Positions 46,631-53,274 of a stretch of 64,000 nucleotides of DNA are shown here, piece after piece. A model generated the notes under the pieces. That model worked only from the letters and a program-made list of their open reading frames with translations. It was not told the DNA's origin and did not search any database. The DNA lies in assembly GCF_005887635.2 (NCBI RefSeq), contig NZ_CP040818.1, positions 2,138,501 through 2,202,500 on the forward strand, read 5' to 3'. The stretch is from Paroceanicella profunda (GTDB taxonomy: Bacteria > Pseudomonadota > Alphaproteobacteria > Rhodobacterales > Rhodobacteraceae). A program made the translations under genes and the position numbers. Positions within the stretch are counted from its first letter, which is position 1, and every line of letters begins with the position of its first letter.

Positions 46631-48202
46631 TTGAGTGCGAGACGCGGTTTCTTCCTGGCCACCTGTCTGGTCGCGGCCCTCGGGCAGGGCGCCGCGGCGC
46701 AGGACGACGCGACGGTGACCCTGCGGTCCACCGACGGCACGATGTCGGTGACCGGCAGGTTGCTGGCGGTGGAGGACGGCACCTTCCGGCTCGCCACCCC
46801 GGTCGGGGAAATCTCGCTCGACATCGACCGCGTGCGCTGCGAGGGCACGGCCTGCCCGCAGGAGGCCGGGGCGCAGGAGTCAGGGATGCAGGAGACGGGG
46901 CCGGAGGGCACGGTCCGGCTGGCCGTGGCCCCGGACCTGTCCGGCCGGCTGCTGCCCGGCCTGCTCGCCGGGTTCCGGTCCCGCGAGGGCGGGGGCGGGG
47001 CGGAGGAGACCGTCGCCTCCGAGACCCTGCCGACGGATGCCGGCCTGCAGGCGCTGCTGGACGGCACCGCCGACCTGGCGCTGACCGACCGCGCCCTGCG
47101 CCCGCGGGAGACGGAGGCGCTGCGTGCGGCCCGTCCCGCCTCCGGGCCGCGCGGTGCCGCGGAGCCCGGCCGGACGCTGGCGCTCGACGCGCTGGTGCCG
47201 GTGACCGCGCCGGGCAACCCGGTGGAGGCCATCTCGCTCACCGACCTGGCCCGGGCCTTCGCCGGCGAGATCACCGACTGGTCCGCGCTGGGGGGCAGGC
47301 CGGGGCGCATCGTGCCCTTCCTGCTCGCGCCGCAAGGCGGCTCGGGCGCCCGGGTGGAGGCGCTGCTGATGGCCCCGGCGGGCCGGGCACCGGGCGCGCA
47401 GGTGCGGATGTTCGACACGGCCGGGGCGCTGGCCGCCGCGGTGGCCCGCACGCCCGGGGCACTGGCGATGATCGGGCAATCCCATGCCGGCGGGCTGCGC
47501 CAGCCCGGCCTCGAGGATGCCTGCGGGCGGCTGGAGCCCCCGTCGCCCTTCACCGTGAAATCCGGCGATTATCCCTTCGTCGTGGCGCTGGAACTGGCCA
47601 GCGCGCGGCCCGGCGCACAGGCCCGCGGCCGCGCCCTCGCCAGCTTCCTGCTCTCGCCCGCGGCGGCGCCGGAGGTGGAGGCCGCCGGCTACGTGAGCCT
47701 GTCGCCGATGCGCATCGGGCTGGGCGAGCAGGGCGTGCGGCTGGCCAATACCCTGCTGGCCCCGGACGAGGACGGCCGGGTGGGCGAGATCCGCGCCCTG
47801 CTCACCGAGCTGCGCGACGCCGAGCGGCTGTCGACCACGCTGCGCATGGACCCCGCCACCGGCCGGCCCGACACGCGCAGCCGTGAGGAGATCGCCCGGC
47901 TGGCGCGGCTGCTCGCCTCCGGCGCCTTCGCCGGGCGCGAGGTGCTGTTCGCCGGGTTCACCGATTCCATCGGCCGGGCCGACCTCAACCGCGACCTCTC
48001 CCTGCGCGACGCAGAGGACATGCGGGCGCTGGTGCTCGGCGCGCTGCCGACCGGCCGGGCGGGCGATGTGCACATCGCCACCTTCGGCTATGGCGAGATC
48101 TCGCCGGTGGCCTGCAACGCCCATGCCGCCGGCCGGGCGGTGAACCGGCGCGTGGAGGTCTGGTTGCGCGCGGCGCGGGCCGGGGAGCCGGATCAGAGAT
48201 AA
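46631..48202 (+). CDS. PstS-like substrate-binding/OmpA-domain fusion protein
   Basis: 523 residues from a TTG at 46631, supported by GGTGGAGATGATCC upstream and by the signal peptide LSARRGFFLATCLVAALGQG (cleavage near AAAQ). Residues about 22-75 form a small beta domain (VTLRSTDGTMSVTGRLLAVE). Residues about 95-340 resemble a periplasmic phosphate-binding protein (TVRLAVAPDLSGRLLPGLLA, LTDLARAFAGEITDWSALGG, GSGARVEALL). About 415-515 is an OmpA/MotB-type peptidoglycan-binding domain (VLFAGFTDSIGRADLNRDLS, RDAEDMRALVLGAL, AVNRRVEVWLR). A periplasmic sensor or binder tethered to the cell wall is inferred. The stop overlaps the radC 3' end by ten bases. Confidence 0.85.
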   Translation: MSARRGFFLATCLVAALGQGAAAQDDATVTLRSTDGTMSVTGRLLAVEDGTFRLATPVGEISLDIDRVRCEGTACPQEAGAQESGMQETGPEGTVRLAVAPDLSGRLLPGLLAGFRSREGGGGAEETVASETLPTDAGLQALLDGTADLALTDRALRPRETEALRAARPASGPRGAAEPGRTLALDALVPVTAPGNPVEAISLTDLARAFAGEITDWSALGGRPGRIVPFLLAPQGGSGARVEALLMAPAGRAPGAQVRMFDTAGALAAAVARTPGALAMIGQSHAGGLRQPGLEDACGRLEPPSPFTVKSGDYPFVVALELASARPGAQARGRALASFLLSPAAAPEVEAAGYVSLSPMRIGLGEQGVRLANTLLAPDEDGRVGEIRALLTELRDAERLSTTLRMDPATGRPDTRSREEIARLARLLASGAFAGREVLFAGFTDSIGRADLNRDLSLRDAEDMRALVLGALPTGRAGDVHIATFGYGEISPVACNAHAAGRAVNRRVEVWLRAARAGEPDQR

Positions 48203-51146: not shown

Positions 51147-51917
51147 ATGCCCAACCCCACCGCAGCCATGCTCGTGATCGGAGACGAGATCCTCTCCGGG
51201 CGCACCCGGGATTCCAACATGAACCACCTCGCCAGGCGCCTCACCGAGGCGGGGATCGACCTGCGCGAGGCCCGCATGGTGGCGGATGACGCGGGCGAGA
51301 TCGTCGCGGCGCTGAACGCGCTGCGCGCCCGCTACACCTATGTCTTCACCTCCGGCGGCATCGGCCCCACCCATGACGACATCACGGCCGATTGCGTGGC
51401 GCAGGCCTTCGGCGTGGGGATCGACGTGCGCGAGGACGCCCGCGCCATCCTCGCCACCAATTACCGCAACCCGGAGACCGAACTGAACGCCGCCCGCCTG
51501 CGCATGGCCCGCATTCCGGACGGAGCGGACCTGATCGACAACCCGGTCTCCAAAGCCCCGGGGTTCCGCATCGGCAACGTGCATGTGATGGCCGGCGTGC
51601 CGGCGGTGTTCGAGGCGATGGTGGAGGGCGTGCTGCCCACGCTCACCGGCGGCGCGCCGCTGCGCTCGCACTCCCTGCGGGTGTTCCTGCCCGAGGGGAC
51701 CGTGGCCGCGCCGCTGGGCGAGATCGCGGCGGCCAACCCGGATGTCGCCATCGGCTCCTATCCGTTCCAGCGCGAGGGCCGCTTCGGCTGCACGCTGGTG
51801 GCCCGGGCGCAGGACACCGACCGCCTCGGCGCGGTGGCCGCGGAGATCCGCGCCATGGCCGAAGCGCTGGGCGCCACCGACATCCTGGAAACCCCGCCGG
51901 ACGCCGCTCTCGCCTGA
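51147..51917 (+). CDS. CinA-like molybdopterin-binding domain protein
   Basis: 256 residues. Only the N-terminal MoCF/MoaB-like domain of CinA is present; the C-terminal deamidase domain is missing. AAMLVIGDEILSGRTRDSNM (about 6-25) and YVFTSGGIGPTHDDITADCV (about 63-82) are the two conserved loops, and NPVSKAPGFRIGNVHVMAGV follows. Related COG1058 proteins act on NAD-recycling pyrophosphates or are of unknown role. ATG with AAGGAGAGCCGAGGA upstream. Ends 53 bp before the tRNA-Leu. Confidence 0.92.
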   Translation: MPNPTAAMLVIGDEILSGRTRDSNMNHLARRLTEAGIDLREARMVADDAGEIVAALNALRARYTYVFTSGGIGPTHDDITADCVAQAFGVGIDVREDARAILATNYRNPETELNAARLRMARIPDGADLIDNPVSKAPGFRIGNVHVMAGVPAVFEAMVEGVLPTLTGGAPLRSHSLRVFLPEGTVAAPLGEIAAANPDVAIGSYPFQREGRFGCTLVARAQDTDRLGAVAAEIRAMAEALGATDILETPPDAALA

Positions 51918-51970
51918 GGGCCGCTTTTGCGCTCGAAAACTCCCGGGCGCCGTGGCAAGAGGGGCCTGTC

Positions 51971-52280
51971 GCGGACGTGGCGGAATCGGTAGACGCAACG
52001 GACTTGAGATACGCTTGAGTGCCCCGGGGGAAACCCCGGGTGCAGAACCGCTCAAATTCGGGGAAGGCTTCCGGTCCGGCCGATGCTGATCCCGAGCCAA
52101 GCCCGCACTTGCGGGAAGGTGTAGAGACTAGACGGGCGGCGCCTGTAGCCGGAAGGCCATGGCGAAGGGATAGTCCAGACTTGCAAACGTCCGGGAGGGC
52201 CCGGACGGCGGCGAAAGCCGTGGCGGTACGAAAATCCGTATCCTTCGGGAGTGAGGGTTCGAGTCCCTCCGTCCGCACCA
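51971..52280 (+). tRNA. tRNA-Leu(UAA), interrupted by a group I intron, CCA encoded
   Basis: Exon 1 (51971-52005) holds the acceptor strand GCGGACG, the leucine-type D arm and the anticodon stem ACGGA followed by CTT (C32, U33, U34). Exon 2 (52231-52280) starts AAAA (A35, A36, A37, A38), closes the anticodon stem with TCCGT, has a long variable arm, a T arm GAGGG/CCCTC with TTCGAGT loop, the acceptor CGTCCGC and an encoded CCA. Joined, the anticodon is UAA and the mature RNA is 85 nt, with seven perfect acceptor pairs, five anticodon-stem pairs and five T-stem pairs. The interruption lies between U34 and A35. Confidence 0.95.
52006..52230 (+). ncRNA. group I intron (IC3-like), 225 nt, no ORF
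   Basis: P1: exon ACUU (52002-52005) pairs with the guide GAGU (52017-52020), placing the canonical U.G wobble at the 5' splice site, and the stem continues as GAG/CUU. P2: CCCGGGG around a GAAA loop (52023-52040 region). P4: UCGGG (52058-52062) with CCCGA (52091-52095). P7: GACUA (52126-52130) with UAGUC (52171-52175). P9 region: GTCCGGG (52189-52195) with CCCGGAC (52200-52206) and a CGGC/GAAA/GCCG hairpin. The intron ends in G (52230), as group I introns do. The core segments resemble those of cyanobacterial tRNA-Leu introns. Confidence 0.92.
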
Positions 52281-52572
52281 GACCAACCCGGTAATCCCGC
52301 TGCGCACAGGGCCGCGATGCCGGGCGGGCATCTCACTTCATTCGGCGCGGCACTGCAAATGGCGGTGTTTCGCGTGCGAAGCGCGACCGTGCGATCCGGT
52401 TCATCAGAATTCCCGGGGCTGACCGGGTTCGCGAAGGAGACTTCCGCGGGCATTGGAGGGTACGATGGTCGAGCTTGGCGATTCGAGCACGCAATTATGA
52501 GTCGTATTTTCAATCATTTAATCCGCCTTGATCGTCTGGGGCTGGGGGGAAATTCTGGGGAAGCCAAAGCTC
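52281..52572. other. A/T-richer spacer between tRNA-Leu and an alpha/beta hydrolase gene
   Basis: Composition changes here: stretches such as gagtcgtattttcaatcatttaatcc (read in two parts around 52498-52523) are far less GC-rich than the rest of the window. No array and no integrase remnant are recognisable. Promoter elements of the following gene probably lie at 52490-52525. Confidence 0.5.
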
Positions 52573-53274
52573 ATGAGAGAAGTTTTTCGGGGAGGCGATT
52601 ACCGCGTTGTCATCGCGCCGCCTACAACGCGGCCGAAACAGCATCTGGTCGCATTCATGGCGTGGAACAAGCAGACCGGGCTGGATCGTCTCCCCGGCTC
52701 AGCAAGATTCACCGGATCCCTCGGGTACGGCTTCGTGGGAATCGTACCCCGAGCCAACTGCTGGTACCAAGGCGACGAAATGCAGGACGTGATCGACTGC
52801 GTCCGGAGCCTCGTTCCGGACGGAGATGAGAAAATTGCGTACAGTTCCTCGATGGGTGCCTATGCGAGCTTCAATTACGCGGAGGCATTGGGGATTTCGA
52901 GGGGCCTGCTGGTGTCACCGCAGTTCAGTGTGGACCCCAAAGTGGTTCCGTTCGAGAGTCGCTGGTCGCGGGATGTTGCCCGGATCGACTTCAGGCGGGA
53001 CCATCTCAGGACCATGACTTCGGACGTGCCCTTTTCGATTCTGCTCGACGAGGGGGGCAGGGCCGATGCGAAGCACGCGCGGCTGATCCGGCGCAGAGTC
53101 CGCGAAACCAGGGCTTACAGCATTGCCGGAGCCGGGCATAATCCGCTGAGGTTCCTCGCAGAACGTGGCCTTCTGAAGCCGCTTGTCGCGGAATACCTGG
53201 AGACGGGGCGGGTGATGCGGCACGAGGCGCTGCCGCTCTCGGAGATCGCCGGGCCCGCCGCGCTGCCGGTCTGA
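52573..53274 (+). CDS. alpha/beta hydrolase-fold protein of unknown function, atypical composition
   Basis: 233 residues from ATG 52573 (GGGGAAG about ten bases upstream; a TTG at 52528 is an alternative). The central KIAYSSSMGAYASFNYAEAL is a nucleophile-elbow-like SSSMGAY (Ser near 93), preceded by a strand with FVGIVPRANCWYQGDE. The acidic residue may be in VPFSILLDEGGRADAKHA and the His in YSIAGAGHNPLRFLAERG. Proteins of this sort appear with capsule or surface-polysaccharide genes, but nothing nearby supports that. Base composition is less GC-rich than its neighbours and it lies just after a tRNA, so horizontal acquisition is likely. Confidence 0.75.
   Translation: MREVFRGGDYRVVIAPPTTRPKQHLVAFMAWNKQTGLDRLPGSARFTGSLGYGFVGIVPRANCWYQGDEMQDVIDCVRSLVPDGDEKIAYSSSMGAYASFNYAEALGISRGLLVSPQFSVDPKVVPFESRWSRDVARIDFRRDHLRTMTSDVPFSILLDEGGRADAKHARLIRRRVRETRAYSIAGAGHNPLRFLAERGLLKPLVAEYLETGRVMRHEALPLSEIAGPAALPV

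Follow-up and report, generated by a model that had tools for sequence, protein, structure and literature searches.

The group I intron of tRNA-Leu(UAA) is a textbook example of an old intron, shared by cyanobacteria and plastids, and introns of the same group interrupt tRNA-Arg(CCU) in Agrobacterium and tRNA-Ile(CAU) in Azoarcus. In such introns P1, P7 and the terminal G have established roles. Split genes have also been described in other Proteobacteria: in Beggiatoa (BOGUAY) and Thiomargarita, putative group I introns divide tRNA-Leu-TAA and were noticed as the tRNA was missing (PMC4853749), and tRNA-Ile2 carries group I introns in Acidovorax and Burkholderia (PMC8450103). The phage group I introns known in 2014 were located in protein genes according to a review of that year, even though tRNA genes occur in many phages (PMC3984707). 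Here we analyse a 64,000-nt stretch of the genome of the alphaproteobacterium Paroceanicella profunda (hereafter the window), which contains a tRNA-Leu(UAA) gene split by an intron. A search of the open-licence literature brought up neither tRNA-Leu(UAA) introns of Alphaproteobacteria nor split phage tRNAs nor the plasmid copy described below, which is a weak negative. The features of the locus, with the evidence for each, are the following.

51147–51917, forward strand: MoCF_biosynth-domain gene, directly upstream of the tRNA (Pfam PF00994; synteny with relatives)
51971–52005, forward strand: exon 1 of tRNA-Leu(UAA), to U34 (sequence; ends ACGGA CUU)
52006–52230, forward strand: group I intron of 225 nt with a terminal G (sequence, RF00028, alignment of relatives, R1 model)
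52231–52280, forward strand: exon 2 of tRNA-Leu(UAA), from A35, with encoded CCA (sequence; AAAA UCCGU ... CCA)
52002–52008 with 52014–52020, forward strand: P1 (UG at the splice-site pair in 163/163 sequences; outermost pair A-C in 59/163)
52023–52029 with 52034–52040, forward strand: P2, GAAA loop (alignment of relatives)
52048–52053 with 52134–52139, forward strand: P3 (four pairs with double-sided change)
52058–52063 with 52090–52095, forward strand: P4 (5′ strand fixed by the search pattern for the most part; variants in L031 and L234)
52102–52106 with 52111–52115, forward strand: P6a (the endonuclease ORF of relatives sits in this P6 loop region)
52126–52130 with 52171–52175, forward strand: P7 (last pair in several forms)
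52140–52143 with 52161–52164, forward strand: P8 (alignment, covariation)
52189–52195 with 52200–52206, forward strand: P9 (alignment; inner pairs gappy)
52209–52212 with 52217–52220, forward strand: P9b, GAAA loop (alignment)

The first-pass annotation of this DNA had described the gene as non-contiguous, and the halves of the anticodon stem (ACGGA/TCCGT) do lie 232 bases apart. Removal of 52006–52230 restores, as it had stated, a leucine tRNA with the anticodon UAA: the joined exons form 7/7 acceptor, 5/5 anticodon and 5/5 T-stem pairs, and CCA is encoded. The insertion point that it had given, between U34 and A35 of the anticodon loop, is correct to the base. This corresponds to the site of the cyanobacterial and plastid tRNA-Leu intron, which is also alike in host tRNA, in a P1 with U.G, in small size and in having no ORF. 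The introns of tRNA-Arg(CCU) and tRNA-Ile(CAU) share the anticodon-loop site, where the model built here from tRNA-Leu introns finds introns too, but differ in host tRNA; the window intron presumably resembles that of Azoarcus and may be of subclass IC3. The introns of Beggiatoa and Thiomargarita are alike in host tRNA and in occurring in Proteobacteria, a likeness drawn by description; they are gammaproteobacterial and were left unclassified (PMC4853749). The split gene was missed by ARAGORN in a scan of the window. The only call of this program there, a 96-nt tRNA-Ala(GGC) at 47336–47431, is probably false: it falls within a long ORF and does not appear among the RF00005 tRNAs of the genome.

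The group I identity of the intron was examined using covariance models. At the curated cut-offs, Rfam gave no match in the window. In E-value mode, RF00028 matched 51996–52193 with 41.7 bits (E = 4.3e-9), the sole Rfam match in 51700–52600; genome-wide, the intron was the only place matched, and this match was lost under stricter filters. The check with RF00028 proposed in the first-pass annotation is therefore answered in two parts: the intron is matched with a low E-value, but its score lies below the curated cut-off of 50 bits, and literally there is no above-threshold match. A second model, R1, was built from 26 tRNA-Leu introns, leaving out the window and its congener (L255). Against the window it scored 133.8 bits (E = 7.8e-30), with all 142 positions covered and without a mismatch mark.

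For comparative analysis, complete split tRNA-Leu(UAA) genes were extracted from the fetched loci (n = 179); without six repeats (three of the window and three of other loci) 173 remained, and the 163 distinct sequences were aligned. The pairs of P3, P7 and P8 are kept in 158 to 163 of the 163 rows, with many double-sided changes, and the fifth (last) pair of P7 occurs in three Watson-Crick forms (A-U in 114 sequences, U-A in 44 and G-C in 4, next to a single G-A). In the 26 aligned cores without the window, pairing at the 29 core positions is retained in 99.7% of the cells, while slid versions of the pairing drop to 28.8–48.1%; 13 pairs are double-changed, as against 6.0 in shuffles (0/500), and these are found in P3, P6, P7 and P8. 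Invariance is no evidence in part of exon 1, in the 3′ end of the 5′ strand of P3 and, for most loci, in the 5′ strand of P4, because there it was imposed by the search patterns. The covariation of P4 noted in the first-pass annotation is borne out among relatives by the forms UCGGGG/UCCCGA in the window, UCGAGG/UCUCGA in L031 and UCAGGG/UCCUGA in L234. Most sequences here have UCGGGG, whereas the cyanobacterial type is UCAGRG. The splice-site pair of P1 is UG throughout the alignment, and the window intron ends in G, as do 176 of the 179 extracted introns, with ends as placed by the script. The P1 with U.G, P4, P7, the GNRA-capped hairpins and the terminal G read by the first annotator are all seen in these sequences. 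Single-sequence folding of the intron (z = -2.65) is weak evidence, the pseudoknot being unable to form in such folding. Overall, it is nearly certain, as firmly as sequence can make it, that this is a group I intron, and its class implies that it very probably removes itself by self-splicing.

On this scheme, the split gene would be transcribed as a single precursor, in which the intron would take on the fold of a group I ribozyme and its internal guide would pair, in P1, with the end of exon 1. A two-step guanosine reaction would excise the intron and join U34 to A35, and the product would be the sole tRNA-Leu(UAA) found in the genome. The RF00005 list for the 5.47-Mb genome contains 47 tRNAs, all typed, with CAA, CAG, GAG and UAG as the leucine anticodons and no tRNA-Leu(UAA). 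This list is incomplete, since it lacks tRNA-Ile(GAU) and tRNA-Ala(UGC); two separate sequence patterns likewise found no intact tRNA-Leu(UAA) in this genome (G000). The second, uninterrupted copy that had been suggested as a check was thus found by neither route.

The codon UUA accounts for 2 of 11,594 codons in the 24 coding-like ORFs of the window and is almost unused, so that a need for the tRNA argues only weakly for splicing. The same scarcity would suit a damaged intron in a gene that is now a silent remnant, UUA being read otherwise or hardly needed. In addition, J4/5 and J5/4 of the window are AAG and UGA, as compared with AAA and CAA in most relatives. This form recurs, however, in L113 and L201, the tRNA stems and core helices are without exception intact, and neither the list nor the patterns hold another UAA tRNA; we consider such a remnant very unlikely. 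No observation was found in favour of an assembly artefact or of a chance inserted sequence mistaken for an intron, and either is improbable in the extreme, given that the congener (L255) and the loci of many separate genomes have the same structure and given the E-value obtained with R1. The whole reading that we prefer, with a probability of roughly 85%, is that of a self-splicing group I intron in the sole tRNA-Leu(UAA) gene found, whose family moves by repeated entry.

Upstream of the split gene lie genes for RadC, an M24 peptidase, SfsA and the MoCF-domain protein, with an SBP/GGDEF protein further on, and no mobile element was seen beside it among the neighbouring genes of the window. 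In relatives, the MoCF gene is found on the same strand, its match ending 65–197 bases before tRNA-Leu(UAA). At this locus the intron is present in the congener (L255) and in G388 (L240), and absent from five genomes of the family, namely G108 (L286), G005 (L289), G002 (L291), G016 (L296) and G009 (L304). The locus is therefore shared, and the intron occurs in some of its copies and is missing from others. Of 81 aligned positions, 75 are identical between the joined exons of the window and the intronless tRNA of G108. In L310, from the same class, the MoCF gene lies on the opposite strand. Since the congener (G001) carries the intron, it is older than the split of the two species, or was gained twice.

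The rarity implied by the first reading does not hold: the intron is widespread, though patchy. A scan of named genomes for exon 1 followed by the beginning of the core gave at least 119 stretches, 118 of these being complete split genes; they belong mostly to Alpha- and Gammaproteobacteria, with some Bacteroidota and, among the matches listed, single or few MAGs labelled Acidobacteria, Bacilli, Desulfobacterales and Bdellovibrionales (labels as recorded). There was no cyanobacterium among the matches listed. Cyanobacterial introns were also sought by two pattern scans of viral contigs, one giving L234 and L235, neither of them demonstrably cyanobacterial, and the other none, and by a plasmid search, which gave eight records, none cyanobacterial. 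In the family of the window, 21 of 394 genomes carry the split gene; a tally of 23 was reduced by G199 and G403 (plus a second match in G388), which yielded no complete gene. A strict intronless pattern fits 96 of the 394 genomes, a count of pattern matches and not the complement of the carriers, and a looser one matched 43 of 61 relatives, some by chance; intronless genes were reconstructed in 47 of the 50 loci opened for that purpose. R1 matched at least 41 of 289 genomes of the class and at least 34 of 349 of the phylum, the window's own included, these being lower bounds since few candidates per genome were taken under strict filters. One genome of the family (G414) has both a split (L245) and an intact (L281) tRNA-Leu(UAA), which differ in sequence.

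As judged by reading the flanks, the introns matched by R1 interrupt tRNA-Leu(UAA) and also tRNA-Arg(CCU), tRNA-Lys, tRNA-Ile(CAU) and tRNA-Leu(CAA). Among 55 such loci, 23 were assigned to Leu(UAA) by a regular expression, 26 to other tRNAs, with isoacceptors read by eye, and six were without the core motif. Typing of the host tRNA through trial joins in ARAGORN gave noise, mistyping the window itself, and flank reading was used instead. Group I introns at other anticodon loops, in tRNA-Lys and tRNA-Leu(CAA), were recognised by eye in L034, L328, L334, L344 and L345.

A minority of the extracted introns (13 of 179) measure 677–706 nt and contain, in the loop region of P6, an HNH-type ORF of about 150 aa, in which they are like the mobile homing group I introns treated in the 2014 review (PMC3984707). 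In ten of the 13, carrying gammaproteobacterial labels, the ORF is antisense (about 154 aa; L089, L090, L095, L111, L118, L140, L164, L168, L177 and L178), and in a Bacilli MAG and two virus contigs it is sense. Pfam scans of three of the 13 ORFs gave HNH or HNH_3 in every case, with at least one of the two above its cut-off, and a query with one intron ORF found 7,452 relatives at E 0.001. In the 225-nt window intron none of the six frames resembles these ORFs, and the intron of L195 retains a 69-aa remnant. The MAG behind L177 is titled Klebsiella pneumoniae, probably wrongly.

Complete split tRNA-Leu(UAA) genes are also found in 33 of 39 virus-contig loci, some of them within tRNA arrays (30 further tRNAs in L201, 19 in L199 and 12 in L216), as well as in Agrobacterium phage Atu_ph07 and in a 735-kb phage record. 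These copies lie in a tRNA, in contrast to the protein genes of the reviewed phage introns (PMC3984707, passages on phages). Apart from the named phages, most contigs are assigned to phages on the strength of IMG/VR and of the tRNA arrays; among ten proteins near the phage copies, two were matched by PHROGs. The exons of L220 are 90–93% identical, in two pieces, to intact tRNA-Leu genes of Synechococcus phages, and tRNA-Leu-TAA of Synechococcus phage S-CAM4 is intronless. The window itself was matched by no phage record. Examples of viral split genes are L199:9044-9826, L211:7040-7801, L201:1082-1358, L216:2685-2962, L313:2480-2900 and L314:2960-3330, two of them with an HNH ORF.

On plasmids, a full-length split-gene copy 76% identical to that of the window occurs in 1,270 of 72,556 records, 843 of which are from Escherichia or Klebsiella. 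The copy is present in 635 of 5,426 complete E. coli genomes (about 12%), with 589 of its 670 places on plasmids, and its distance from aac(3)-II genes is 0.6–2.1 kb in the three plasmid records examined. Its nearest fetched relative is that of Rhodovulum steppense (L079; 89.3%), so that part of the aac(3)-II plasmid region may be of rhodobacterial origin. The split genes at L236:6001-6299 (pCTX-M3), L237:4001-4297 and L238:4001-4300, on clinical and environmental plasmids, are intact and unannotated. Four records of Bradyrhizobium plasmids, e.g. CP094621.1 (160682–160920), show a 68% match over 83% of the L234 split gene.

The question of transfer versus descent, raised in the first-pass annotation, is answered partly. 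The occurrence of empty sites at the same locus, together with endonuclease-bearing relatives and phage and plasmid carriers, favours repeated transfer. Introns would enter tRNA-Leu(UAA) genes repeatedly, by homing of forms bearing an HNH endonuclease, and plasmids and phages would carry the whole split gene; the endonuclease would afterwards be lost and the intron inherited or lost. We regard this course of movement as fairly probable. A tree of 175 introns mostly follows class (9 changes for alphaproteobacteria, as against 58.5 when shuffled), which counts against movement because long vertical inheritance would give the same picture. Within it, Carnimonas, a gammaproteobacterium, pairs with an alphaproteobacterium (99/86) inside a group of 15 alphaproteobacterial rows (99/89), and the virus label requires 7 changes, 3 of them forced by well-supported branches. 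The tRNA-Arg(CCU) intron L035 lies on a long branch among the alphaproteobacterial Leu introns. In this tree the bootstrap was not settled, the two outgroup rows are not on one side of a branch, and the plasmid introns L236–L238 are absent. A second tree, of 79 cores with site labels and built from few columns, neither establishes nor rejects a single Leu(UAA) clade apart from the introns of the other tRNAs (p-AU 0.105).

Vertical inheritance of an ancient tRNA-Leu(UAA) intron of bacteria, with loss in most relatives and little transfer, would agree with the clustering by class and with the sharing of the intron by the congener, and loss explains the tRNA locus with and without the intron as well as gain does. 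It would need very many losses, however, with 21 of 394 family genomes as carriers, and it sits badly with Carnimonas inside the alphaproteobacteria, with the mixed virus rows and with the plasmid and phage carriers; this account is possible but rather doubtful. The intron is real and a new member of an already known kind, and horizontal movement of its family is very likely. We also lean towards viewing tRNA-Leu(UAA) as a site through which introns circulate among bacteria, phages and plasmids, occupied by one family with some HNH-armed members, of which the window copy is a disarmed resident. If so, the circulation spans proteobacterial tRNA-Leu(UAA), the tRNA arrays of phages (cyanophage-like contigs, the 735-kb phage and Atu_ph07) and conjugative plasmids, and another member, close to that of Rhodovulum, has spread in the vicinity of aac(3)-II to about 12% of the complete E. 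coli genomes. Empty sites, endonuclease-bearing forms and phage and plasmid carriers make the question of age versus transfer testable, and with this common, patchy proteobacterial counterpart of the old intron it can be addressed in sequenced strains.

Finally, two further sequences were observed. In L104, a second copy resembling exon 1 of tRNA-Leu, perhaps decayed, lies about 0.2 kb before the split gene at 2255–2560. In Pelagibacter phage HTVC120P (L316:2001-2155), a stretch resembling the intron core is found between two ORFs both annotated as capsid protein, and is perhaps a group I intron in a capsid gene.
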